Below, one piece after another: positions 2,775 to 14,535 of a stretch of DNA of 18,025 nucleotides; position 1 is the first letter of the stretch, and each line of letters starts with the position of its first letter. A program made the translations under genes and the position numbers. The DNA is taken from assembly GCA_003503355.1 (NCBI GenBank), contig DOCS01000112.1:1-18025 (forward strand). Reading direction: 5' to 3'. This stretch comes from Opitutia bacterium. GTDB lineage: Bacteria > Verrucomicrobiota > Verrucomicrobiia > Opitutales > Coraliomargaritaceae. Under the pieces are notes generated by a model, which saw nothing but the letters and a program-made list of their open reading frames with translations, ran no database searches and was not told the DNA's origin.

Positions 2775-2947
2775 TTTGTGGAGTCGAAAGAGGGAACCCG
2801 CTTGGCTCGGAGAGCGACGCAGTTCAATCAGTATGAAATTCGAGAGAGTCGGGGGGAAGTGAAAAGTGGAGCGTTTTTCTGATTCAGGTTATGTAAACCT
2901 TCAAGGATACACTTGCGTGCGCTTTGGTTCCATTGCTTTTTTCCCTT

Positions 2948-3526
2948 ATGCAGAATTTGCACTACAAGTACGACGGTCTGATTTTTGATATGGATGGCAC
3001 GTTGGCCGACACGATGCCGGCGCATTTTCTTGCGTGGTGCCGATCGATGGCCGAGCACGGTATAGATTTCCCTGAAGAGCGCTTTTACGCGCTAGGGGGA
3101 GTGCCCGCGTCGGAGATTATTGATCTGTTAGCGCAGGAGCAGGGGCTGTGTGTCGATGCGCATGCGATTGCCGAGGCAAAGGAGGTACTGTTTCTTGAGC
3201 TGCTGGGCGACGTGCAGCCGGTCGTGCCGATCAAAGCGATTGCTGAGTGGCACCGCGCGCACCTGCCGATGGCGATTGCTACCGGCAGCCCCAAATGGGT
3301 CGCGGAAAAGATACTCAAAGCGCTGGGGATCCGGGAGTGGTTCGACGCGGTGGTCGGTGCAGAATGCGTGGCTCATTCCAAGCCGGCGCCCGATGTGTAT
3401 CTTCGTGCTGCTGAATTGATCGGGGTCGACCCGAGGCGCTGTCATGCCTTTGAGGATACCGCACTCGGTGTGCAAGCCGCTAAAAATGCTGGTATGACGG
3501 TGGTCAACATTCACACATTGCTGTAG
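2948..3526 (+). CDS. HAD-superfamily sugar-phosphate phosphatase, YqaB-like
   Basis: 192-aa soluble HAD hydrolase of the beta-phosphoglucomutase / YqaB group, probably dephosphorylating a small sugar phosphate such as fructose-1-phosphate. All four HAD motifs are present: I, DMDGTLADT with nucleophile Asp14 and acid/base Asp16; II, ATGS at 111-114; III, KPAPD from Lys145; IV, FEDTALGVQAAKNAG with Glu169-Asp170 for Mg2+. The alpha-helical cap between motif I and II (about 20-85) has the small-cap layout of YqaB, and similarity to E. coli YqaB as I recall it runs along the whole length. The ATG at 2948 puts the first strand in the normal position; an in-frame TTG at 2924 is less likely. It lies 81 bases before arsS on the same strand, but a link to arsenic chemistry is not shown. 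Confidence 0.88.
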   Translation: MQNLHYKYDGLIFDMDGTLADTMPAHFLAWCRSMAEHGIDFPEERFYALGGVPASEIIDLLAQEQGLCVDAHAIAEAKEVLFLELLGDVQPVVPIKAIAEWHRAHLPMAIATGSPKWVAEKILKALGIREWFDAVVGAECVAHSKPAPDVYLRAAELIGVDPRRCHAFEDTALGVQAAKNAGMTVVNIHTLL

Positions 3527-3607: not shown

Positions 3608-4582
3608 ATGTCTAGCCCGTCACTAAATGTCCCGTTGTTTGAGGACACCCTCGCCGCGAATCAACTCGATCTCACGCGTACGGTGCCACGGGTGTTGCAG
3701 CTAAATATTGGCAAGCTCTGTAATCTCACCTGTGTGCACTGCCATGTGAACGCCGGCCCGCGCAGAAAGGAGATCATGACACGTGAGACGGTCGATCGGA
3801 TTCTCGGTTGGCTTGCTGGCACGCAGATCGAAGTGGTCGATCTGACTGGGGGCACTCCCGAGATGATTCCCGACTTCCGCCATTTGGTGGAACAAATTCG
3901 CGGGATGGGCAAGGCGGTGATGGATCGCTGTAACTTGACTATTCTAAACGAGCCGGGCTACGAATGGGTGGCCGATTTTCACGCCGAGCACGGGGTCGAA
4001 ATCGTGGCCTCAATGCCTTGTTACTGTCCAAAGAATGTGAACGAGCAACGCGGCGACGGCGTGTTCGATTCCAGTATCAGCGCGTTGCAGACTTTAAACC
4101 AACTGGGCTACGGCAGGGACACCGGTTTGAAACTGGATCTGGTTTATAACCCCAACGGCGCCAGCTTGCCGCCTGAGCAAGGTGCGCTTGAAGCGGATTA
4201 TAAGCGCGAGTTGAAGTCGCATTTCGATATCGATTTTGATCATCTCTACGCGATCACCAATATGCCGATTGCGCGCTTTACCTCCTACTTAAAGCGTGAA
4301 GGTGTTTATGCAGATTATATGCAATTGCTGCTCGATCATTTTAATCCGCATTCAGTCGCGGGGCTGATGTGCCGCGATACGATCAATGTCGATTGGGAGG
4401 GGCGTGTGTATGACTGTGATTTTAATCAGCAGCTCGGGCTGCATCATGGTGCGAAGCCGACGCCTTTGAAAGTGTGGGAGCTTGATTTCGTCAACTGGGC
4501 GAGCCTGCCCATTTTGACCGGCAGTCATTGCTATGGCTGCACCGCAGGGCAAGGTTCCAGCTGTGGTGGCGCGACGGTGTAG
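3608..4582 (+). CDS. arsS: Arsenosugar biosynthesis radical SAM protein ArsS
   Basis: 324-aa radical SAM enzyme of the ArsS family, which transfers the 5'-deoxyadenosyl group of SAM to dimethylarsenite on the way to arsenosugars. Seen directly: the [4Fe-4S]/SAM motif CNLTCVHC with Cys38, Cys42, Cys45; the SAM-contacting GGTPE at 81-85; a Cys138-x-Cys140 pair in SMPCYCPKN; and a cysteine-rich C-terminal domain (Cys255, Cys270 in VYDCDFNQ, Cys308, Cys311, Cys319 in CYGCTAGQGSSCGG) typical of the family's auxiliary-cluster region. Length is as expected. The ATG at 3608 has no Shine-Dalgarno. It opens a + strand run with DUF547, the redox fusion, the glycosyltransferase fusion and arsM, and this neighbourhood supports the arsenic assignment over other SPASM-type proteins. 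Confidence 0.9.
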   Translation: MSSPSLNVPLFEDTLAANQLDLTRTVPRVLQLNIGKLCNLTCVHCHVNAGPRRKEIMTRETVDRILGWLAGTQIEVVDLTGGTPEMIPDFRHLVEQIRGMGKAVMDRCNLTILNEPGYEWVADFHAEHGVEIVASMPCYCPKNVNEQRGDGVFDSSISALQTLNQLGYGRDTGLKLDLVYNPNGASLPPEQGALEADYKRELKSHFDIDFDHLYAITNMPIARFTSYLKREGVYADYMQLLLDHFNPHSVAGLMCRDTINVDWEGRVYDCDFNQQLGLHHGAKPTPLKVWELDFVNWASLPILTGSHCYGCTAGQGSSCGGATV

Positions 4583-4632
4583 TGGCGTGGATCGATCTGC
4601 ACTCTCCCGGACGAGGGCTGTTGGCTTCATGA

Positions 4633-4661
4633 CTGATACGTCAAAAATAGTGGAATAAAAT
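4633..4661 (+). promoter_or_regulatory. Possible sigma70-type promoter before the DUF547 gene
   Basis: CTGATA (4633-4638, 4/6 to the -35 consensus), 17 bases, then TAAAAT (4656-4661, 5/6 to the -10 consensus). Transcription would begin about 11 bases before the ATG at 4679. The -35 sits inside a small dyad, TGAC...GTCA. This is a pattern match only; the 96-base arsS-DUF547 gap is longer than the other early gap in the run (2 bases), leaving room for an internal promoter. Confidence 0.3.
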
Positions 4662-4678
4662 TCGAATCGTAGCTTCAA

Positions 4679-5440
4679 ATGGATATCATGTTTTTGATGA
4701 GCCGATCCTATATCTGTGTTCTCCTTGCGGTGCTTGTTTGCCTTCTTCGCGGTCTGTCCCTCCAAGCCGCTCCCGACTATACGGAGTATGCGCGCTTGCT
4801 TGAAACGTATGTGGTTGAGGATGGGGTGCGCTACGCGGAATGGCACAAGCAGGCCGCAGATATTGCCAGACTGGAGGCATTTGTCACGGAGTTGGGCCAA
4901 ACGGATGTCGACGCACTCTCGAAGGCGGAACAGAAGGCCTTGTATCTCAATCTGTACAACGCGGCGATGTTGCGCGCGGTGTTTGAGCATTATCCGATTC
5001 AATCGGTGAAGCATATTGGTCTGCTGCCCTTCAGTATCTTTAAGAAGAAGTTCATTGCCCTCGGGGATGCACGTGTGAGTTTGGATCGGTTAGAAAAGGG
5101 GATCTTGTTGAAGGCGTATTTTGATCCGCGCATTCACTTTGCGGTCAATTGTGCGAGTGAAAGTTGCCCGCCGTTGCGAGCGGAGCCTTATCGCGGGGAT
5201 CGCGTGGAAGCCCAGTTGGAGGAGCAAACGCGCCTCTTTGCCCGCAGTCATCGAGCCGCGCGGGTGAATGAAGCAGCGCATAGCGTGGCTTATTCGGAGT
5301 TGTTTAAGTGGTATGCGGACGACTTTTCGGTCCAGAATCCCGCTCAATTTTTAAATTGTTTTCGGCAGTCGAAGTTGCCGATTCATTATGCGATCGAGTG
5401 GCTGGATTATGACTGGTCGCTCAACGCTGCATCCAACTGA
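4679..5440 (+). CDS. Exported DUF547 domain protein
   Basis: 253-aa protein with an N-terminal signal peptide: hydrophobic core about 11-25, likely cleavage near SLQA-A (30/31). It is therefore periplasmic or envelope-located. The rest is a DUF547 domain, function unknown. Conserved family pieces are ALYLNLYNAAMLRAV (87-101, with Asn91 and the YNA core), HFAVNCASESCPPL (153-166, with His153, Cys158, Cys163) and SELFKWYADDF (206-216). The two cysteines with the histidine suggest metal or thiol chemistry, but no reaction is known to me. Start choice: ATG 4679, 4688 or 4697 are all possible; 4697 gives a shorter, more typical n-region. It ends 2 bases before the next start, so it is almost surely co-translated with the redox fusion. 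DUF547 proteins recur beside ArsS/ArsM genes, as I recall. Confidence 0.88.
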   Translation: MDIMFLMSRSYICVLLAVLVCLLRGLSLQAAPDYTEYARLLETYVVEDGVRYAEWHKQAADIARLEAFVTELGQTDVDALSKAEQKALYLNLYNAAMLRAVFEHYPIQSVKHIGLLPFSIFKKKFIALGDARVSLDRLEKGILLKAYFDPRIHFAVNCASESCPPLRAEPYRGDRVEAQLEEQTRLFARSHRAARVNEAAHSVAYSELFKWYADDFSVQNPAQFLNCFRQSKLPIHYAIEWLDYDWSLNAASN

Positions 5441-5442
5441 TT

Positions 5443-7710
5443 ATGCCGAATTTGATCGCTCGTTACACGCACTGGCTGCACACGCAATGGCCCTCCGGAG
5501 GCGTCGAAAAAGGCCCTGGTGTGAATGATGACGGCACCACGAATTTAAAAGGTGTGCGCGTGGTCGGCGATTTGACCGGAGTGCCGTTACTGAAGTTTTC
5601 GGCGGATACCGGAGCCAAGGCGGTCGGCGAGCTGTTACAAGAATCAGATTTTAAAGTGGGGGCCGGTACGGGCTCAGATGTGTATGATCTGGTGATTGTG
5701 GGGGCTGGAGTTTCCGGTATGTCGGCTGCGATCGAAGCAAAGCGGGCGGGCTTGAATTTTGTGCTGTATGAGGCGGACGAGAGCTTTGCCACGATTCACA
5801 ATTTCCCGCGCAAAAAGCCGATCTTCACGTATCCCACCGAGATGCGCAATGCCGGGCAGTTGGACTTCAAGGCGGATGTGAAGGAGGCGCTGCTCGAAGA
5901 GCTGAAGGCGCAGCAGTCCGCGCATGGCATCCAAACGACGCGGGCCAAGGTGCAGCGTATTTGTCGCGAGGGTGGTGTGCTGTGCGTGGATTTTTTCAAA
6001 GGTGCGCCGGTCAAAGCGCAGCGTGTGATCGTCGCAATTGGGCGCACGGGGAATTTTCGCAAGTTGAATGTGCCGGGTGAGGGGCTGGACAAGGTCTCGA
6101 ATCGGTTAATTGATGCTAGTGAACTCGCCGGTCAGCAGGTGATGGTGGTGGGCGGTGGTGACTCTGCGCTGGAAGCCGCCATCGCGCTGGCTGAGGCTGG
6201 GGCGATCGTGTCGCTCAGTTATCGCAAAAAAGCATTCTCGCGGGCGAAACCAGAGAACGTCGACAAGGTGCAGGAGCTGGCTACTAAACAGGAGCTGATC
6301 CTTTATATGGGCACGAATTTACAGCAGATCAACGAGGACGATGTCGTGGTGTGCGGTGAGGATAATCAAGACTGCCTCGTGCCGAATGCGGCGGTCTTTA
6401 CCTTGATCGGACGAGAGCCGCCGCTGGACTTTTTTCGTCAATCGAAGATTTCGGTGACGGGTGACTGGACGCCGAAGGTGTGGGCCGGGCTGGTTGGCTT
6501 CTTTATTGCCTTCATGGTTTTTTATCACTGGCAAAAGGGGCTGTGGCTTCAGGATCTCCGCCCTGGCAAAATGGCGTGGTGGCTGAGTTCGCTGGGTGGC
6601 TTTTTTCAAGCGCAGGTGGACAATCCGCGGCATCTGTTAAACCATCTGCGCGGGGCACTGAATCAGCCGGGGTTTTATTATTCCTTGGCTTATTGTGTGT
6701 GCGTGGTGGCTTTTGGGATTCGACGGATCAAGCGTCGTCGCACGCCGTATGTGAAGCTACAGACTTTGACGCTGTCGGCGTTTCAGATCATTCCGCTGTT
6801 TCTGCTGCCTTGGATTTTATTGCCTTGGTTCGGCGCTCTCGGTTGGTGGGAGTCCGGTATCGGTGGCATCATCGCCGATTGGTTCTGGCCGAATGGCGAG
6901 TATTGGCGGGCGTTCGGCTTGATTCTCGCATGGCCGCTATTTGTGTATAATTGGTTCACTGCGGAGCCTCTGTGGGGCTGGCTGATTCTCGGTTTCGTGC
7001 AGACTTTCGTTTTTATTCCGTGGATCGTCTGGAAGTGGGGCAAGGGCGCGTATTGCGGGTGGATTTGTAGCTGCGGCGCGTTGGCCGAGACTTTGGGCGA
7101 TGCACATCGGCACAAGATGCCGCATGGGCCGTTTTGGAATAAGCTTAATATGCTCGGGCAAGTGCTGCTCGCGGTGGCCTTTGTGATGATGGGCTTGCGC
7201 ATTCTCGGATGGCTGCTGCCGGACGGGAACTTTGCCGCGAGTCTTTTCAGCTCGATGCTGTCGGGGATTCCAGTGTTGAACTGGAAATACACGGTCGATG
7301 TGTGGCTCGCGGGTGTCTTTGGAGTCGCCTTTTATTTTCATTTTTCGGGGCGTGTGTGGTGCCGGTTTGCCTGTCCGCTTGCCGCGCTGATGCATATTTA
7401 TGCACGCTTCTCGCGTTACCGTATTTTCGCTGAGAAGAAAAAGTGCATCTCGTGTAATGTCTGCACCACGGTCTGCCACCAGGGGATCGATGTGATGAAC
7501 TTCGCCAACAAAGGGATTCCGATGGAGGATCCCGAGTGTGTGCGCTGCTCCGCGTGTGTGCAATCCTGCCCCACCGGCGTCTTGAACTTTGGTCGATTAG
7601 ACGGCAACGGCGGCGTGATTTATGATCAGTTACAGGCGTCACCTGTGCGGATGCAGGAAATCCATTCGCTCTCGCCGGTGGATAAATTACTCGCGGAGGG
7701 AAAGCGTTGA
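5443..7710 (+). CDS. NAD(P)H/FAD oxidoreductase fused to a membrane 4Fe-4S protein
   Basis: 755-aa multi-domain redox protein. Residues ~80-340 form a YpdA/thioredoxin-reductase-like flavoprotein: FAD-binding GAGVSG at 87-92, a second dinucleotide motif VGGGDSAL at 236-243 for NAD(P)H, and a closing VFTLIGREPP. Residues ~345-635 hold about seven hydrophobic helices with NapH/CcoG-like (Fer4_5) cysteine motifs: CGWICSCGALAE (Cys538, 542, 544, where families usually have a Pro after the second Cys) and WCRFACPLAAL (Cys640, 644). Residues 668-709 carry two classical [4Fe-4S] ferredoxin motifs, C668-x2-C671-x2-C674-x3-C678 and C699-x2-C702-x2-C705-x3-C709. It looks like a one-chain route from NAD(P)H via flavin to iron-sulfur clusters at the membrane. 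Substrate unknown. The 2-base gap to DUF547 and the arsS/arsM setting suggest a job in the arsenosugar pathway; a quinone-, thiol- or arsenic-linked acceptor are all open. Confidence 0.85.
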   Translation: MPNLIARYTHWLHTQWPSGGVEKGPGVNDDGTTNLKGVRVVGDLTGVPLLKFSADTGAKAVGELLQESDFKVGAGTGSDVYDLVIVGAGVSGMSAAIEAKRAGLNFVLYEADESFATIHNFPRKKPIFTYPTEMRNAGQLDFKADVKEALLEELKAQQSAHGIQTTRAKVQRICREGGVLCVDFFKGAPVKAQRVIVAIGRTGNFRKLNVPGEGLDKVSNRLIDASELAGQQVMVVGGGDSALEAAIALAEAGAIVSLSYRKKAFSRAKPENVDKVQELATKQELILYMGTNLQQINEDDVVVCGEDNQDCLVPNAAVFTLIGREPPLDFFRQSKISVTGDWTPKVWAGLVGFFIAFMVFYHWQKGLWLQDLRPGKMAWWLSSLGGFFQAQVDNPRHLLNHLRGALNQPGFYYSLAYCVCVVAFGIRRIKRRRTPYVKLQTLTLSAFQIIPLFLLPWILLPWFGALGWWESGIGGIIADWFWPNGEYWRAFGLILAWPLFVYNWFTAEPLWGWLILGFVQTFVFIPWIVWKWGKGAYCGWICSCGALAETLGDAHRHKMPHGPFWNKLNMLGQVLLAVAFVMMGLRILGWLLPDGNFAASLFSSMLSGIPVLNWKYTVDVWLAGVFGVAFYFHFSGRVWCRFACPLAALMHIYARFSRYRIFAEKKKCISCNVCTTVCHQGIDVMNFANKGIPMEDPECVRCSACVQSCPTGVLNFGRLDGNGGVIYDQLQASPVRMQEIHSLSPVDKLLAEGKR

Positions 7711-7791
7711 GTTGCCTTGGCCTTGGGTGGACCATCATGCTGTAGCGGTAACGATGGATTTTAAACCTACAAGGGGCTGCGCACCGAGCAA

Positions 7792-9819
7792 ATGATGGCG
7801 ATACGCATGTGGGCATGGCTGTTGCTGTTGAGCGTGGCATCGGTCGCCGTGTTCACCTATGGGCAGGTAACGGTGTGCTTTGATACGCCGAGTTTGTGGC
7901 GGGTCGGGTTGTTTCCAGTTATCGGGCTGGCGGGGCTGTTGAGCGTGTTCCTGTTTCCCAGCTTCAAGCACAAGCGCAGTGTTTTATTGGCGATTTGGAT
8001 TCCGGCGATTGTGCTGCGCGTGCTGCTGTTGCCAGCGGCGGTTTCCGATGATGTGAATCGCTATTTATTTGAGGGGCAACTGGTCCGCTCCGGTGTGAAT
8101 CCTTATGCGCAAACTGCGGATGCGGCAACTCTCGAGTCGTACCGCGATGTGTATTGGCAGGCGATGAATCACAAGGACAAGCCGACGGCTTATCCGCCGC
8201 TTGCGGAGCTCGCCTTCGCAGCGATTGGCGGTATCTGGTATCATCCACTGGCCTATAAACTGGTTTTTATACTCGCCGATTTACTCACTCTGGGAGCCGT
8301 GCTTCAATTGTTGCGCAGGCGCGGGCTGAGCTTGGCATTTTCTGGATTCTACGCGCTCAATCCGATTGTGCTGCTCGCCTATGCCGCAGAGGCGCATTTT
8401 GATTCATTGATGGTGGCCGCGTTGATGTGGGCTTTGTGCGTGCACCAGGCGGGGCGCCAGCAATTGGCGGTGGCCCTAGCCTCGGTGGCCACCGGGGTTA
8501 AATGGATCGCGTTGCCGTTTATTCCGTTTTTTGCCGGCAAGCGCCTGGTTGTTGGCGGTCTGGTTGCTTTGGCTGTGTTGTTGCTGCCAGCGCTGTATTT
8601 CAAGGACTCGCTCGGGGATCTGTTGCAGGCCTTGTTCGCCTTTGGCGGCACGCGCAGTTTCAATGGCTTCTTTTATGAGCTCTTGCTGCGAGGGGCGAAT
8701 TTTCCGCGTTCGCTGTGCAGCGGCATCGTGATGGCATTGTTTGCGCTGGTCATCCTGTGGCGCTGGCTGTGGCGGGATCGTGCGTCTGTGGAGTGCCATT
8801 TGCGCTGGATGCTGGCTGCCTTAATCGTGCTCTCGCCGACCGTACATTTCTGGTATCTGGCTTGGATTCTGCCGCTGGTGTGCCTGTGTCCGTCTTTGCC
8901 GTGGATTACCTTTTCGTTGACGGGCGGTATTTACTTTTTTGTGTGGCCGAACGCCCAGGGCGAGCGTGGTTGGAGTTTGGATTTGTGGCAGCAATCTGTG
9001 TTTTGGGCGCCTTTTGTGATCGCCTGTCTGTATGAGCTTTGGAGTACCCGAGGACGGATCGTGCTGCCTGTTTTGCGGCCGGCCGATGCGGTCGATGCCG
9101 AGGTCGCAGTGGTGATTCCTACACTGAATGCGGCGGCGGACTTGCCCCGCGCATTGGCGAGCATTCGGCGGCAAACGGTTGCGGTGCGCGAAGTGCTGGT
9201 CGTCGATGCGGGGTCGTCTGACGCTACCGTACAAATCGCGTCGGCAGCGTCGCTTCCGGCGCAAGTGCTGTACAGTGATCGTGGACGGGGCTTGCAGATT
9301 GCGACGGGACTCGAAGCGGCGCAGGCAGACTGGGTGATTGTCTTGCATGCGGATGCCGAGCTCGCGCCAAATGCCGTGGACTGTTTATTGCGCGCGGTTG
9401 AAGGTAATCGGGATGTGCTTGGCGGGGCGATGGGGCAGCGCTTTGCCGAGGGCAATCCGGAGCTGCTGCCGATTGAATTGCTGAACGATTTGCGTGCGCA
9501 GTTCACGCGTACGGCCTTTGGTGATCAGGTGCAGTTTTTTCACCGCGAAATGGCAGTGCGTTGTGCGCTGATGCCCAAGCAAGCATTGATGGAAGATGTC
9601 GAGTCGAGCTGGCGAACACGTGAGCAGGGTGGATTTTTGTTTTTGGGCCTACCATGTTTGGTGAGTCATCGCAAGTGGAACCCACAAGACTGGTTCAAGC
9701 GCTTCAAGCTGGTGATGCGTCTTGTCTCTAGATATCGCTGGGCGCGGATGCGCAGCAGCGCGGATGCGGAGGCATTGAGTGAGCAACTGTATGCCGAGTA
9801 TTACTCGGTCCGGAAATAA
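7792..9819 (+). CDS. GT-C membrane glycosyltransferase fused to TIGR04283-like GT2 domain
   Basis: 675-aa fusion. Residues 1-~415 are polytopic (about ten hydrophobic helices) and look like a GT-C polyprenyl-sugar-dependent mannosyltransferase: the first large loop carries SDDVNRYLFEGQLVRSGVNPY (85-105), with acidic residues where GT-C enzymes place the catalytic Asp. Residues ~435-675 are a cytosolic GT-A/GT2 domain: VVIPTLNAAADLP (440-452), VVDAGSSDAT (470-479), DRGRG (496-500), HADAEL (519-524, the metal-binding DxD equivalent), GDQVQFFHRE (577-586) and LMEDVESSWR (599-608). These fit the TIGR04283 family named for arsenosugar biosynthesis. ATG at 7792 or the adjacent 7795 is the start. 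The gap from the previous gene is 81 bases with no clear signal. Acceptor and donor are unknown; attaching a sugar to an arsenical aglycone or to a polyprenyl carrier is inference. Confidence 0.8.
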   Translation: MMAIRMWAWLLLLSVASVAVFTYGQVTVCFDTPSLWRVGLFPVIGLAGLLSVFLFPSFKHKRSVLLAIWIPAIVLRVLLLPAAVSDDVNRYLFEGQLVRSGVNPYAQTADAATLESYRDVYWQAMNHKDKPTAYPPLAELAFAAIGGIWYHPLAYKLVFILADLLTLGAVLQLLRRRGLSLAFSGFYALNPIVLLAYAAEAHFDSLMVAALMWALCVHQAGRQQLAVALASVATGVKWIALPFIPFFAGKRLVVGGLVALAVLLLPALYFKDSLGDLLQALFAFGGTRSFNGFFYELLLRGANFPRSLCSGIVMALFALVILWRWLWRDRASVECHLRWMLAALIVLSPTVHFWYLAWILPLVCLCPSLPWITFSLTGGIYFFVWPNAQGERGWSLDLWQQSVFWAPFVIACLYELWSTRGRIVLPVLRPADAVDAEVAVVIPTLNAAADLPRALASIRRQTVAVREVLVVDAGSSDATVQIASAASLPAQVLYSDRGRGLQIATGLEAAQADWVIVLHADAELAPNAVDCLLRAVEGNRDVLGGAMGQRFAEGNPELLPIELLNDLRAQFTRTAFGDQVQFFHREMAVRCALMPKQALMEDVESSWRTREQGGFLFLGLPCLVSHRKWNPQDWFKRFKLVMRLVSRYRWARMRSSADAEALSEQLYAEYYSVRK

Positions 9820-9829
9820 ACCTGCCTGG

Positions 9830-9858
9830 TTGCATCTGTGCGATGCATCACATATAAA
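9830..9858 (+). promoter_or_regulatory. Candidate promoter for arsM
   Basis: TTGCAT (9830-9835, 3/6 to the -35 consensus), a 17-base spacer, then TATAAA (9853-9858, 5/6 to the -10 consensus), ending 27 bases before the arsM ATG at 9886. The position and A/T-rich -10 are good; the -35 is weak. It would let arsM be expressed apart from the upstream genes. Confidence 0.4.
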
Positions 9859-9885
9859 CTATTCAACTTAAACCCTGTTTATCCG

Positions 9886-11043
9886 ATGTCTCAACCGACC
9901 CATACTCGATCCTCTGTAGAAAAACGCTATGCCGATGCGGCTAAACAGCAGGAGGCGGCCTTGTGCTGCCCGGTTGAATATGATCGCAAATATTTGGAAG
10001 TGATTCCGGACGAAGTGATCGAAAAGGACTACGGCTGTGGCGATCCTTCCAAGTGGGTGAAGGCGGGCGAGACCGTGTTGGATCTGGGCTCCGGCACGGG
10101 CAAGATTTGCTTTATCGCGGCACAGGTCGTTGGCGCGGCTGGCAAAGTGATCGGTGTCGATATGACGGACGATATGTTGGAAGTAGCGAATCGGAATGCG
10201 CCGATCGTCGCAGACAGGATTGGTTTTTCGAATGTGGAATTTCGCCGCGGACGCATTCAGGATTTAGGCTTGGATTTGGATCGACTTGAGCAGGCGTTGC
10301 AGGCGAATCCCGTCGCCAATGCGGCCGATTTTTTGAATCTGGATGTCGTCGCTGAGGAGCTGCGGATGAAGCATCCTTTGATTGAGAGTGATTCGATTGA
10401 TGTGGTGGTGTCCAATTGCGTGCTAAATTTAGTCGAGCCCGAACAGAAGCCGAAGTTGTTTCGCGAAATTTTCCGTGTGCTGAAGAAAGGCGGACGCGCA
10501 GTGATCTCGGATATCGTCAGCGATGAGCCGGTGCCGCTTGAGATGCGGCAGGATGCCGAGCTGTGGAGCGGGTGTATCTCCGGCGCGTTGACCGAGCAGG
10601 GATTTTTACAGGCCTTTGAAGATGCTGGGTTTTATGGAATTGAGTTGGTCAAGTTTGAGACCCAGCCATGGCAAACGGTGGAGGGCGTTGAATTTCGCTC
10701 CGTAACGGTTCAAGCCTACAAGGGAAAGCAAGGCCCGTGTTTTGAGCACAATCAGGCCGTGGTCTATCAGGGGCCTTTTAAGTCGGTGTTGGATGACGAT
10801 GGGCATCGTTTTGATCGAGGCGTGCGCACCGCTGTTTGCGACAAGACCTTTAATTTGCTGCAAAGTGGGCCGTATGCTGGTCTTTTTGCCGCGATTGAGC
10901 CCCTGGAGGCGATTGTTTCCGATCAGGCTCAGCCGTTTAATTGTCGCAAGGGCGCGCGGCGTCACCCTAAACACACCAAGGGGCAGGACTACGACGCCAC
11001 TACGGAAGCGGCACATTGCATTGACGGTGTCGAGTGCTGTTAG
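9886..11043 (+). CDS. arsM: Arsenite methyltransferase ArsM
   Basis: 385-aa SAM-dependent methyltransferase that methylates As(III) to mono-, di- and trimethyl species. Class I motif I is VLDLGSGTGKICFIAAQ at 64-80, followed by VIGVDMTDDML (88-98) with the SAM-ribose acidic residue. The three cysteines expected to hold As(III) are visible: Cys51 in GCGDPS, Cys178 in VSNCVLNL and Cys230 in WSGCISGAL. There is also a Cys27-Cys28 pair near the N-terminus and a CC end (384-385) after Cys378. A C-terminal domain of about 110 aa follows the Rossmann fold, as in long ArsM proteins. Start: ATG 9886 gives the family N-terminus; the in-frame GTG at 9838 overlaps the likely promoter. With arsS in the same cluster it should supply dimethylarsenite for arsenosugar formation. 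Confidence 0.93.
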   Translation: MSQPTHTRSSVEKRYADAAKQQEAALCCPVEYDRKYLEVIPDEVIEKDYGCGDPSKWVKAGETVLDLGSGTGKICFIAAQVVGAAGKVIGVDMTDDMLEVANRNAPIVADRIGFSNVEFRRGRIQDLGLDLDRLEQALQANPVANAADFLNLDVVAEELRMKHPLIESDSIDVVVSNCVLNLVEPEQKPKLFREIFRVLKKGGRAVISDIVSDEPVPLEMRQDAELWSGCISGALTEQGFLQAFEDAGFYGIELVKFETQPWQTVEGVEFRSVTVQAYKGKQGPCFEHNQAVVYQGPFKSVLDDDGHRFDRGVRTAVCDKTFNLLQSGPYAGLFAAIEPLEAIVSDQAQPFNCRKGARRHPKHTKGQDYDATTEAAHCIDGVECC

Positions 11044-11062
11044 CGGTAATGGCGGACGCGCG

Positions 11063-11102
11063 CTTAGCCTTCAATAGCCTTAGCTAAGTTGCTTAGTATT
11101 TT
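11063..11102. terminator. Hairpins between convergent arsM and the DUF2064 gene
   Basis: Two alternative hairpins are seen: CTTAGC (11063-11068) with GCTAAG (11083-11088), and CTAAG (11084-11088) with CTTAG (11092-11096) across a 3-base loop, followed by TATTTT. The second resembles a short intrinsic terminator for arsM. It overlaps the end of the opposite-strand gene by two bases. The stem is only 5-6 base pairs, so strength is doubtful. Confidence 0.35.
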
Positions 11103-11763
11103 ACTGCGCCAAGATTTCGGCGGGCAAGCAGCCGGTTTGAATCGCGCGTTCTAGCTCAGCGAGCTCGTCGATGTCGTACAAGGTCTCCAATCGTTTGACC
11201 CGCAGGCCTAGTTTCGCGGCTTGTTGCAATGAAGCGTCGAGGGTGTTTTGCGTGCTCCAGGGGATATTTTCAAACAGTTGCGGGTGGGGAGCACTGAGGC
11301 CGATTAAATAATAGCCGCCGTCTTCGCTTGGCCCGAAGACGACGTCGCAGTCTGTGTTGAGTGCCGCTGCCGCTTGCTCGAAGTGGCTTTGTTGCAGCTG
11401 CGGGCAATCGCCTCCGATACACAGGACGTTGTGCGCGCCGCGTGCAAAGGCGCCTTCGATCGCGCGCATCAATCGAACGCCCAAGGTGCCTTCGGCTTGA
11501 GGGTAGAGTGCGAGGTCAGTGCCCAGCCATTGCTGCATTTCAACTTCGGCATCAATGGGGGTGAAGTGGACTTCGGTGCGTTCTCGCTCAGGCAGTCGGC
11601 TGCACTGGCGTTCGACCAGAGCACGATAAGCGCGCAGTGCTGCTTCGTTGCCGATTGAGTGTGCGAGGCGTGTTTTGACATCACCGCTGCGCGGGGCTTT
11701 GAGGAACAGCAAAACTGCGGTGTCTTTTCTGGTCGGGGTGAATTGATTTACGCGGTGGTTCAT
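11101..11763 (-). CDS. TIGR04282-type (DUF2064) arsenosugar glycosyltransferase
   Basis: 220-aa soluble GT-A-fold protein of the DUF2064 / TIGR04282 group, named by association with arsenosugar genes; its substrate has not been proven to my knowledge. Visible motifs: LLFLKAPRSGDVKTRLA (18-34, nucleotide-binding loop resembling MobA/CofC-type nucleotidyltransferases), GGDCPQL (117-123, the DxD-like metal site with Asp119), FGPSEDGGYYLIGL (143-156) and IPWST (167-171), ending with YDIDE (196-200). All family hallmarks are intact and length is normal. It faces the rest of the cluster, converging on arsM with 57 bases between stops, and is divergent from ugd. Start at the ATG complement of 11761-11763. 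It could act as a nucleotidyltransferase rather than a glycosyltransferase. Confidence 0.85.
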   Translation of the reverse strand: MNHRVNQFTPTRKDTAVLLFLKAPRSGDVKTRLAHSIGNEAALRAYRALVERQCSRLPERERTEVHFTPIDAEVEMQQWLGTDLALYPQAEGTLGVRLMRAIEGAFARGAHNVLCIGGDCPQLQQSHFEQAAAALNTDCDVVFGPSEDGGYYLIGLSAPHPQLFENIPWSTQNTLDASLQQAAKLGLRVKRLETLYDIDELAELERAIQTGCLPAEILAQ

Positions 11764-11833: not shown

Positions 11834-13195
11834 ATGAGAAAAATTTGCTGTATTGGAGCTGGATATGTTGGTGGGCCGACTATGGCCATGATTGCACACA
11901 AGTGCAAGGATCACTCGGTCACCGTTGTGGACATTAATCAGTCGCGTATCGATGCGTGGAATTCCGATGAGTTGCCGATCTTCGAGCCCGGGCTGGATGA
12001 GATTGTAAAAGGCTGCCGTGGCAAGACGCTGTTCTTCTCGACGGATGTCGATACCGCGATCCGCGAGGCAGACATTATTTTTATCAGCGTCAATACGCCG
12101 ACCAAGACCTACGGCGTCGGCGCCGGTCGTGCTGCGGATCTTCGTTACATTGAAAAGTGTGCCCGTAAAATTGCGCAAGTGGCGGAAGATGATAAGATCG
12201 TAGTCGAAAAATCCACTTTGCCGGTGCGCACCGCTGAATCGATCAAGCGTATTCTGGAGGCGAACTCGAACGGCCGTAAATTTCAGATCCTTTCGAATCC
12301 CGAGTTCCTAGCCGAAGGCACTGCGGTGGCGGATTTGGAAAATCCGGATCGTGTTCTGATCGGTGGCGATCAAACACCAGAGGGGCTCGCGGCGATCCAA
12401 GCATTGGTCGATGTCTACGCGACTTGGGTGCCGCGTGAGAATATTCTGACCACCAACTTGTGGTCTTCAGAGCTCTCCAAACTGGCTGCCAATGCTTTCC
12501 TTGCGCAGCGTATTTCTTCGATTAATGCGATTTCTGCACTGTGCGAAGCGACGGGCGCCCATGTCGATGAGGTGGGTCATGCCATCGGCACGGATAGCCG
12601 TATCGGTCCGAAGTTCCTCAAGGCCTCTGTTGGCTTTGGGGGATCATGCTTCCAAAAAGATATTCTTAATCTGGTGTATCTCTGCGAGCATTTCGGGTTG
12701 CCTGAAGTCGCCGCTTATTGGAACGGCGTGATCGAGATGAATGATTATCAGAAACATCGTTTCGCACGTCATATCATTTCAACTATGTTCAATACCGTGT
12801 CGGACAAGAAGATTGCTGTGCTCGGTTTCGCTTTCAAGAAAGACACCAATGACACGCGCGAGTCCGCTGCGATCTATGTGTGTAAAGATCTGCTCGATGA
12901 GCAGGCGAACATTAGTATCTACGACCCCAAGGTACCAGAGGCTCAAATACGCCGCGATCTGGATCTTGCCGAAGATGATTCATCAGTGACCGTTTGTGCG
13001 GATGCCTATGAGGCGACGAAGGACGCGCATGCAATAATCATTTTGACTGAGTGGGATGAATTCAAGGCACTCGATTTTAAGAAGATACACGACAGCATGA
13101 ATATGCCTGCCTTCTTGTTTGATGGGCGTAACTTGCTCGACCGCGCGGCACTGCGAGCAATCGGCTTTGAAGCGAGCGGCATCGGTCGTGGGTAA
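11834..13195 (+). CDS. ugd: UDP-glucose 6-dehydrogenase, animal-type
   Basis: 453-aa cytoplasmic enzyme oxidising UDP-glucose to UDP-glucuronate with 2 NAD+. NAD-binding GAGYVGG is at 8-14. Catalytic residues correspond to the human enzyme with a constant -4 offset: Thr127 in EKSTLPV, Glu157 in NPEFLAEGT, Lys216 in SELSKLAAN, Cys272 and Asp276 in [12 protein letters not shown]. Long blocks read like vertebrate UGDH as I recall it, for example [31 protein letters not shown] and [14 protein letters not shown], much closer than to E. coli Ugd. ATG 11834 gives the standard N-terminus; ATG 11816 would add six residues. It is divergent from the DUF2064 gene and ends at a strong terminator, so it is likely monocistronic. 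UDP-glucuronate probably feeds exopolysaccharide or glycan synthesis. Confidence 0.95.
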
Positions 13196-13353: not shown

Positions 13354-14535
13354 ATGATCGTTAAACCGCGCATCCGAGGATTTGTTTGCATTACTGCCCA
13401 CCCGAAAGGTTGTGAGGCCAGAGTTCGTCAGGAAATAGAGGTCGCCAAGGCGGCCAAAAAAGAAGGTGGGCCCAAGAAAGTGCTCGTTCTTGGTTCGTCC
13501 ACCGGTTACGGGCTCTCGACCCGCATCGCTTCTGCGTTCAGTTACGATGCCGCCACATTTGGTGTTTTCTTCGAGCGTCCCTCAACCAAGGGTAAGACGG
13601 GTAGCGCGGGCTGGTATAACTCTGTCGGCTTCGAGAAAGCCGCTCATGAGGCTGGCTTGTACGCCAAGAGCATTAACGGTGACGCCTTTTCCAAAGAAGT
13701 GAAAGAGCAGGCGATCGCTCAGATTAAAGAAGATCTCGGTCAGATTGATTTGGTGGTCTACAGCCTCGCTTCTCCCCGCCGTACCGATCCCGAGACCGGC
13801 GAAACTTACAAGTCTGTTCTGAAGCCGATCGGCGACAAGCCTTTCACTAACCGTACTATGGATACGGATCGCAATGAGGTCAAAGAAGTGACCATCGAGC
13901 CTGCAACAGAGGAAGAAATTCAGCACACCATCAATGTCATGGGTGGGCAGGATTGGGAGCTTTGGATGAAAGCCTTGTCGGATGCCGGCGTGCTGGCTCC
14001 CGGTGCGAAAAGTGTCGCTTATTCGTATATCGGGCCGGAAGCCACGTGGCCAGTCTACACGAATGGTACGATTGGGCAGGCCAAAAAAGATGTCGAACGC
14101 GCAGCCGCTGCGATCACTGAAGCTTACGATTGCGAAGCGTATGTTGCAATCAATAAGGCAGTGGTCACTCAAGCCAGTTCCGCGATTCCTGTGGTCCCGC
14201 TATATATCTCGATCCTCATGAAGCTCATGAAGGAGAAGGGCACACATGAAGACTGTATTGAGCAGATGGTACGTCTTCTCGAGGATCGTCTCTACGGACC
14301 AGATTTGAAACTGGATGAGCTTGGTCGCATCCGTGTGGATGATTGGGAAATGGCGCCGGATATTCAGGCCGCAGTGATTGATATCTGGCCGGAAATTACT
14401 TCCGAGACGCTCAATACACTGGGCGATTACACCGGCTATCAGCACAATTTCCTGACACTCTTTGGTTTTGGCCTTGCTGGCGTCGATTACGACGAGGATG
14501 TCGAGGTCGATTTGCCTCTGCCAAGCAGCTTGTAG
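13354..14535 (+). CDS. fabV: Enoyl-[ACP]/trans-2-enoyl-CoA reductase FabV
   Basis: 393-aa NADH-dependent enoyl reductase catalysing the last step of each fatty-acid elongation cycle. The N-terminus MIVKPRIRGFVCITAHPKGC is diagnostic of FabV. The dinucleotide-binding VLVLGSSTGYGLSTRIA is at 43-59. The catalytic Tyr-x8-Lys is Tyr235 (in WPVYTNGT) and Lys244 (in GQAKKD), matching the positions known for FabV enzymes. Full length is normal (about 395-400 aa). Start at the ATG 13354 is fixed by the conserved N-terminus. The gene stands alone between two intrinsic terminators. FabV is insensitive to triclosan in characterised species. Whether it is this organism's only enoyl reductase cannot be told from the window. 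Confidence 0.96.
   Translation: MIVKPRIRGFVCITAHPKGCEARVRQEIEVAKAAKKEGGPKKVLVLGSSTGYGLSTRIASAFSYDAATFGVFFERPSTKGKTGSAGWYNSVGFEKAAHEAGLYAKSINGDAFSKEVKEQAIAQIKEDLGQIDLVVYSLASPRRTDPETGETYKSVLKPIGDKPFTNRTMDTDRNEVKEVTIEPATEEEIQHTINVMGGQDWELWMKALSDAGVLAPGAKSVAYSYIGPEATWPVYTNGTIGQAKKDVERAAAAITEAYDCEAYVAINKAVVTQASSAIPVVPLYISILMKLMKEKGTHEDCIEQMVRLLEDRLYGPDLKLDELGRIRVDDWEMAPDIQAAVIDIWPEITSETLNTLGDYTGYQHNFLTLFGFGLAGVDYDEDVEVDLPLPSSL

Follow-up and report, generated by a model that had tools for sequence, protein, structure and literature searches.

The locus and its genes

We analysed a contig of 18,025 bases from an Opitutia bacterium (DOCS01000112.1), which was taken in its entirety and is called here the window; its source genome has 1.89 Mb and is 75% complete. 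Between positions 3608 and 11763 the window carries six neighbouring genes, all of them open and intact (Table 1), which an initial annotation had grouped as a compact arsenosugar biosynthesis cluster. The six named genes are indeed together there and belong to the families proposed, with three corrections: the TIGR04282 gene is on the opposite strand, the TIGR04283 domain scores below its curated cut-off, and ArsM stays below the cut-offs of the ArsM models given here. The five genes of the plus strand are separated by 2 to 96 bp. This grouping is not due to chance, as the same genes lie together in several relatives; the locus is a genuine arsenosugar-type cluster that is conserved and represents a membrane-type variant.

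Table 1. Genes of the arsenosugar-type locus and its flank in the window.
Gene or product	Position	Strand	Remarks
ArsS, radical SAM	3608..4582	+	TIGR04167 435 bits; CxxxCxxC 38-45
DUF547, probably exported	4679..5440	+	PF04784; N-terminal hydrophobic stretch
FlavFeS: YpdA-like flavin domain fused to NapH-like membrane Fe-S domain	5443..7710	+	
GT fusion: GT87-like membrane (GT-C) domain and TIGR04283-like GT2 domain	7792..9819	+	
ArsM, arsenite methyltransferase	9886..11043	+	ArsM models, each below cut-off
TIGR04282 (DUF2064), CofC-like nucleotidyltransferase relative	11101..11763	-	188 bits, cut-off 134
UDP-glucose dehydrogenase-like (UGDH), TIGR04282 neighbour	11834..13195	+	outside the proposed pathway
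FabV enoyl-ACP reductase, flanking	13354..14535	+	outside the proposed pathway

The presence of ArsS and ArsM was borne out by the family matches. The ArsS protein scores above the cut-off of 300 bits of its model, has the cluster motif at residues 38-45, and is the one ArsS match in its own genome. Members of the ArsS family join a 5'-deoxyadenosyl group to dimethylarsenic. The likeliest start of ArsM is the ATG at 9886, and its scores stay below the cut-offs of the arsinothricin model NF040538 (340/500), the wide-sense model NF008823 (206/263) and the arsenosugar model NF038099 (134/400). Its cysteines 52, 179 and 231 (numbered from the codon at 9883), found in YGCG, SNCV and SGC motifs, correspond to the three conserved arsenic-binding cysteines of arsenite methyltransferases. 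The product roles of ArsS and ArsM are known for these families elsewhere, and the formation of adenosyl-dimethylarsenic is predicted for this bacterium.

The TIGR04282 protein matches 3cgx, a putative nucleotide-sugar transferase (2e-21), and weakly 7p97 and a 3-phosphoglycerate guanylyltransferase (E 0.0016). In an alignment of 50 rows, residues K30, R32, D119 and D148 are each conserved in 94% or more; we take these Lys/Arg and Asp positions to be those of CofC-like nucleotidyltransferases. The protein has the conserved residues of that group, and nucleotidyltransferase activity is predicted for it.

The DUF547 protein (PF04784, E 1e-24) is probably exported, judging from a single N-terminal hydrophobic stretch at residues 5-23. 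H153, C158 and C163 are invariant in an alignment of 28 rows, and no sequence relative was found among solved structures at E <= 1. FlavFeS presents a GxGxxG-type motif and two motifs each of the forms CxxxC (at 538 and 640) and CxxCxxCxxxC.

In the GT fusion, the GT87 match reached 25.8 bits (Pfam cut-off 25) and the TIGR04283 domain 145 bits, below the cut-off of 182, so that the wording "TIGR04283-like" of the initial annotation was apt; two other fusions gave 145 and 151 bits. The standalone TIGR04283 genes scored 168 to 263 bits, six of the eight above the cut-off, and two more scored 251 and 260. Residues D86, D87, R90, Y91, E94 and G95, as well as E601 and D602, are invariant in 34 rows, and we take the invariant DD to be the GT-C motif. 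Among solved structures, the GT2 domain matches dolichol-P-mannose synthase, ArnC and other GT2 enzymes. In the ArnC/ArnT and DPM1/GT-C systems, a polyprenyl-phosphate sugar synthase is paired with a membrane GT-C transferase. The window resembles them in having an ArnC/dolichol-P-mannose-synthase-like GT2 together with a GT-C-like domain that carries the invariant DD, but here both parts are in one polypeptide, and the GT-C likeness comes from the 25.8-bit GT87 match and this motif.

A CelA/PgaC-like GT2 gene separates FlavFeS from the GT fusion in genomes G010, G023 and G027, and it is absent from the 81 bases that separate these genes in the window. For the separate GT2 of locus L170 there was no solved relative at E <= 1e-6. 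We also considered that the GT fusion and the standalone TIGR04283 gene might be mutually exclusive; this was rejected, both being present in G075, where the standalone gene (L173:523-1320, 221 bits, cut-off 182) is elsewhere in the genome. Among the other fusion genomes, the search covered one further GT2 match in each of G057, G046, G010, G000 and G100, and none of these was above the TIGR04283 cut-off.

Conservation of the neighbourhood

Among 57 genomes, an ArsS match (E <= 1e-3) was obtained in 14, of which 11 are full proteins, that of the window included, and three are weak fragments. Of the ten relatives with a full ArsS, four (G007, G010, G004 and G023) have all six genes together, and a fifth, G027, has five of the genes; in it the stretch reaches the end of the contig before TIGR04282. 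The neighbourhood is thus conserved in the genus and family. Other lineages present a different order, with DUF547-ArsS-ArsM-FlavFeS-phosphorylase-TIGR04282 in G057, G100 and G075. Locus L042 holds GT fusion, GT2, TIGR04282, ArsM, MTAP, ArsS, DUF547 and an ArsC-like gene; L046 holds ArsM, ArsS, an ArsC-like gene, TIGR04282, GT fusion, GT2 and DUF547; and L044 has a similar set in another order. In these clusters of differing gene order, FlavFeS and DUF547 adjoin ArsS or lie near it. The wider set of ArsS loci comprised the best 80 of 169 candidates encoding a relative, the named ones at its head being Opitutales and other Verrucomicrobiota. The automatic gene picker used on the loci misses genes, and its counts were not taken as rates. 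Eight loci that duplicated contigs of the set were removed ahead of gene picking, and repeats were likewise removed from the TIGR04282 and FlavFeS trees.

Compared with the ArsM-ArsS pathway of cyanobacteria, the window shares an ArsS over the cut-off, an ArsM-like methyltransferase and TIGR04282. It differs in its GT-C::GT2 and flavin/Fe-S fusions, and eight other genomes of the order with ArsS have instead a MerA-like flavoprotein and a TIGR04283-type protein without GT-C. Sets of ArsS, TIGR04283, TIGR04282 and VTT-FAD genes in Pseudomonadota (L101, L102, L103, L104 and L105) and in G151 resemble the window in their ArsS, TIGR04282 and TIGR04283-type GT2, and in having a pyridine-nucleotide flavoprotein that includes a membrane part; G151 also shares DUF547 and ArsM. 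However, their flavoprotein is MerA-like, beside or fused to VTT, whereas that of the window is a YpdA-like/NapH-like fusion, and the GT2 of the window is fused to a GT87-like domain. In G151, TIGR04282 and TIGR04283 form one protein of 458 amino acids beside ArsS, with both parts over their cut-offs.

TIGR04282 and ArsS

Co-occurrence was evaluated in 158 genomes of the order, the source genome included, of which 20 have ArsS over the cut-off and 138 do not; the Fisher tests given here and below ignore shared descent. TIGR04282 was over its cut-off in 32 of the 158. Both genes were found in 18 genomes, ArsS only in two, TIGR04282 only in 14 and neither in 124 (3e-13; 1.5e-12 without the source genome). 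The two genomes with ArsS outside the TIGR04282 count are G089, where the gene is broken between the ends of two contigs, and G044, without a match. TIGR04282 tracks ArsS, being present in 18/20 against 14/138 genomes, which supports its membership in the arsenosugar set.

The TIGR04282 tree separates most rows with ArsS from those without it (FastTree, with G347 as ArsS-less: 6 changes, shuffled mean 13, 0/500). The window protein falls in a 17-row set, all labelled as having ArsS, together with the nine phosphorylase-adjacent rows; the support is weak (94/75), and in the tree that gave this set L162 (G347, without ArsS) bore the ArsS label. A tie of TIGR04282 to ArsS by position alone was rejected, as UGDH and FabV adjoin TIGR04282 without ArsS in G013 and G020. 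Taken together, the initial annotation was right on the start of the pathway and probably on TIGR04282, while for the DUF547 protein, FlavFeS and the GT fusion its proposal is unproven.

The FlavFeS/GT fusion module

FlavFeS and the GT fusion were found together in 18 of the 158 genomes, each one alone in one, and neither in 138. FlavFeS was counted above 290 bits over its pieces, with weaker matches left out, and a GT fusion required a match to each of its two halves (in G124 on two contigs; G144, with the GT-C half only, was left out). For ArsS and FlavFeS the counts were 9 with both, 11 with ArsS only, 10 with FlavFeS only and 128 with neither (Fisher 6e-5). TIGR04282 is present in every one of the 19 genomes counted for FlavFeS and of the 19 counted for the GT fusion, and because of this the two fusions go with TIGR04282 more than with ArsS. 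Moreover, DUF547-FlavFeS-GT2-GT fusion constitutes a separate block in G013, G020 and G119 and in the ArsS-less G065; therefore, the module is not specific for arsenic. The FlavFeS of G027 (L021) groups with that of G119 (100/100) and not with its own family, and for this reason the module seems to have been exchanged. The candidate view of FlavFeS as an ArsS-specific clade was rejected on the basis of the tree described below.

Two types of flavoprotein can be distinguished among the 20 genomes with ArsS. FlavFeS is present in nine, all of them with the GT fusion. FADox, a MerA-like flavoprotein, is present in eight, all with a standalone or TIGR04282-fused TIGR04283-type gene that is over the cut-off in six (G101 and G089 reach 178 and 168 of 182). 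The FADox count has a lower limit of 40% identity, many more distant matches being left out; it includes G076, whose match is a fragment (72% identity over some 150 residues). FlavFeS and FADox were not found together in any of the 20 genomes. The exceptions to the two sets are G046, with the GT fusion and without FlavFeS; G059, with a standalone TIGR04283 gene and without FADox; and G155, with neither flavoprotein. At most six (FlavFeS), seven (GT fusion) and nine (FADox) first-look candidates were scored per genome, so these absences are not absolute. In many loci FADox is beside or near a VTT-domain gene, and in Pseudomonadota it is fused to VTT. VTT/DedA proteins are lipid scramblases. The VTT partner of one type and the GT-C-like domain of the other suggest that the product may be linked to a lipid.

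A divergent phosphorylase in relatives

Several relatives carry a divergent MTAP-like phosphorylase that reaches 122 bits on the MTAP model (L121), with a cut-off of 275. At 58% identity or more, this subfamily is present in 5/20 genomes with ArsS and in 0/138 without it, five further matches of 32-37% identity being left uncounted. In the phylum it was found at E <= 1e-40 in 9/387 genomes, eight of which have ArsS (G057 and G075 included; G347 is the one without). The phosphorylase genomes add up to 12, 11 with ArsS, and in nine the gene is directly beside TIGR04282; in G342 and G478 it was found without TIGR04282 in the fetched stretch. The ArsS-less G347 (L162) has the MTAP-like, ArsC-like, ArsM and TIGR04282 genes in one block. 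In L042 and L094, MTAP proper, over the cut-off, is located between ArsM and ArsS. In the alignment the MTAP-like proteins keep Asp206 but have an altered, shorter version of the segment that in the three ordinary MTAP rows reads TDYDCW or differs from it by one letter, which hints at an altered base recognition. A distant flavin/Fe-S match is also close by in L162, and in G100 a cytosine-deaminase-like amidohydrolase follows TIGR04282 (L121:13121-14356).

The cluster of the window lacks the likely adenine-removing step, a nucleoside phosphorylase, which several relatives place within theirs. The phosphorylase of L121 (G100) has the same sequence as a protein recorded for Puniceicoccus vermicola, which offers a named source of proteins and whose genome has DUF547-ArsS-ArsM-FlavFeS-phosphorylase-TIGR04282 in one block. 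In this way, the comparison turns the late steps into tests on named proteins: the MTAP-like phosphorylase, the nucleotidyltransferase relative and the glycosyltransferase.

Proposed pathway and competing explanations

Seaweeds contain much organic arsenic, mostly as arsenosugars and arsenolipids, according to the abstract of PMC6656958. Arsenic adenosylation is credited to a radical SAM enzyme in a passage of PMC12159101 that cites the ArsS paper, and "arsenosugar biosynthesis glycosyltransferase" occurs as a gene annotation in part of PMC13077682. In the open-licence literature no enzyme assigned to steps past ArsS was found, the subscription literature being outside the search, and passages of PMC12608789, PMC8787705 and PMC11009773 present no later step. 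We propose, with a probability somewhat under one half (about 0.48), that the locus is a membrane-type variant of the arsenosugar cluster, following the route ArsM, ArsS, phosphorylase, TIGR04282 and GT fusion. The ArsM-ArsS arsenosugar pathway of cyanobacteria is among the closest known systems; the work on ArsS is reportedly that of Cheng et al. 2021, and Xue et al. 2019 is a further reference. ArsM would convert arsenite into dimethylarsenic, to which ArsS would add a 5'-deoxyadenosyl group, giving an arsenic nucleoside. A nucleoside phosphorylase encoded outside the window would then take the adenine off, leaving 5-dimethylarsinoyl-ribose-1-phosphate, which the TIGR04282 protein would join with a nucleotide. 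In the GT fusion, the TIGR04283-like domain would then place the arsenic ribose on a lipid or lipid carrier, and on the outer side of the membrane the GT87-like half may pass it on. The roles of DUF547 and FlavFeS would be accessory; as a guess, they may act in product maturation and electron supply, perhaps keeping arsenic trivalent. All the steps past ArsS are suggested by neighbourhood, co-occurrence and family resemblance.

Several observations weigh against this route or against the initial annotation. In five of the ten near relatives (G020, G013, G017, G046 and G044) none of the other five genes accompanies ArsS in the fetched stretch, which in G013, G017 and G046 was short or had ArsS near a contig end; the outcome that would refute the initial annotation, relatives consistently lacking the other genes, was thus observed in part. 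In G013 (L115) and G020 (L129), TIGR04282-UGDH-FabV is linked on a contig other than those of ArsS and of DUF547-FlavFeS-GT2-GT fusion. TIGR04282 is present in 14/138 ArsS-less genomes of the order, FlavFeS in ten and the GT fusion in nine, and the co-occurrence tests do not correct for descent. In the FlavFeS tree, rows with and without ArsS interleave (3 changes; shuffled mean 4.5; 36/500). The ArsS-less G065 has a block of TIGR04282, methylthioribose-kinase-like gene, GT fusion, GT2, FlavFeS and DUF547, and the ArsS-less G066, G081 and G063 have one of TIGR04283-type gene, FADox, VTT and DUF547, which speaks against a function restricted to arsenic; a separate GT87-like gene lies near the latter block in G066 and G081 (only G081 was scored with the models for TIGR04283 and GT87). 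As regards the phosphorylase, a scan of ten proteins of the window gave none (the frames assigned by eye as tgt, RecO-like and helicase-like lay outside the scan), and the source genome, 75% complete, has PF01048 only on contig C160, as a purine-nucleoside phosphorylase fragment. The MTAP-like subfamily is also missing from G010, a genome with the whole cluster and a completeness of 100%, as it is from 15/20 genomes with ArsS. The initial annotation had also suggested that the arrangement may define the late steps. The conserved set and the tracking of ArsS by TIGR04282 agree with this, but the arrangement alone does not define them, because half of the ten relatives are without the other genes in the fetched stretch, FlavFeS occurs in ArsS-less genomes and the module stands apart.

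A possible explanation, to which we give less weight than to the membrane-type route, is that only ArsM, ArsS and TIGR04282 are arsenosugar genes, and that DUF547, FlavFeS and the GT fusion belong to a module of their own, for surface glycans or redox reactions, which came to lie between ArsS and ArsM by insertion in this genus. The block that stands apart in four genomes, the near-perfect sharing of FlavFeS and GT fusion, the absence of ArsS from 10/19 FlavFeS genomes, and the apparent exchange seen in G027 are all in line with it. Nevertheless, ArsS and FlavFeS co-occur above expectation (shared descent uncorrected) and stay together in clusters of different order, TIGR04282 accompanies every FlavFeS genome counted, and FlavFeS and FADox behave as if filling one slot in the genomes with ArsS. 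In a broader scheme, which we find rather unlikely, TIGR04282, the glycosyltransferase, the flavoprotein and DUF547 would form a general pathway that takes a 5-substituted 5-deoxyribose (a SAM by-product) through a nucleotide sugar to a membrane lipid or surface glycan. Synthesis of the arsenosugar (phospho)lipid would be the arsenic branch of this pathway, with ArsM-ArsS as supplier, joined in some lineages by a dedicated phosphorylase. In ArsS-less genomes the set would act on another 5-substituted ribose or on arsenosugar scavenged from algae, with a methylthioribose-kinase-like enzyme as supplier. Such a protein is encoded in G065 between TIGR04282 and the GT fusion (L106:8197-9267; 93 bits on TIGR01767, cut-off 275), and the gene is present in 5/14 ArsS-less genomes with TIGR04282 against 2/144 others. 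As a fixed partner of TIGR04282 it was rejected as unproven, the adjacency being seen in G065 only. A fucosidase and a sulfatase are likewise encoded in L106.

It is also conceivable, but quite improbable, that the phosphorylase only clears 5'-deoxyadenosine, a radical SAM by-product, or methylthioadenosine, the late steps bypassing ribose-1-phosphate and TIGR04282 acting otherwise. The PF01048 superfamily is common (13/14 control genomes), and the MTAP-like subfamily is missing from most of the genomes with ArsS; on the other hand, this subfamily is divergent, nearly confined to genomes with ArsS, and its gene is beside TIGR04282 even when ArsS is far off or on another contig (G339, G263 and G195). 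That the cluster makes another organoarsenical, for example arsinothricin, seems highly improbable: the window ArsM does score best on the arsinothricin ArsM model, but below its cut-off, the radical SAM gene is an ArsS far over its own cut-off, and no other of the six proteins matches a radical SAM model among the best 25 matches per protein.

Flanking genes and other observations

The edges given to the cluster in the initial annotation fit the comparison: the HAD gene at 2924-3526, used as query, gave no match in the table of relatives' ArsS stretches, and UGDH and FabV follow TIGR04282 and not ArsS. The tRNA and Rfam scans of the window were empty, and its promoter- and terminator-like sites were within the shuffled-sequence expectation. 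Finally, a PitA-like phosphate permease is encoded near ArsS in L057, L065, L067, L075, L076, L077, L083, L087 and L123, and in several of these loci it sits between ArsM and ArsS.

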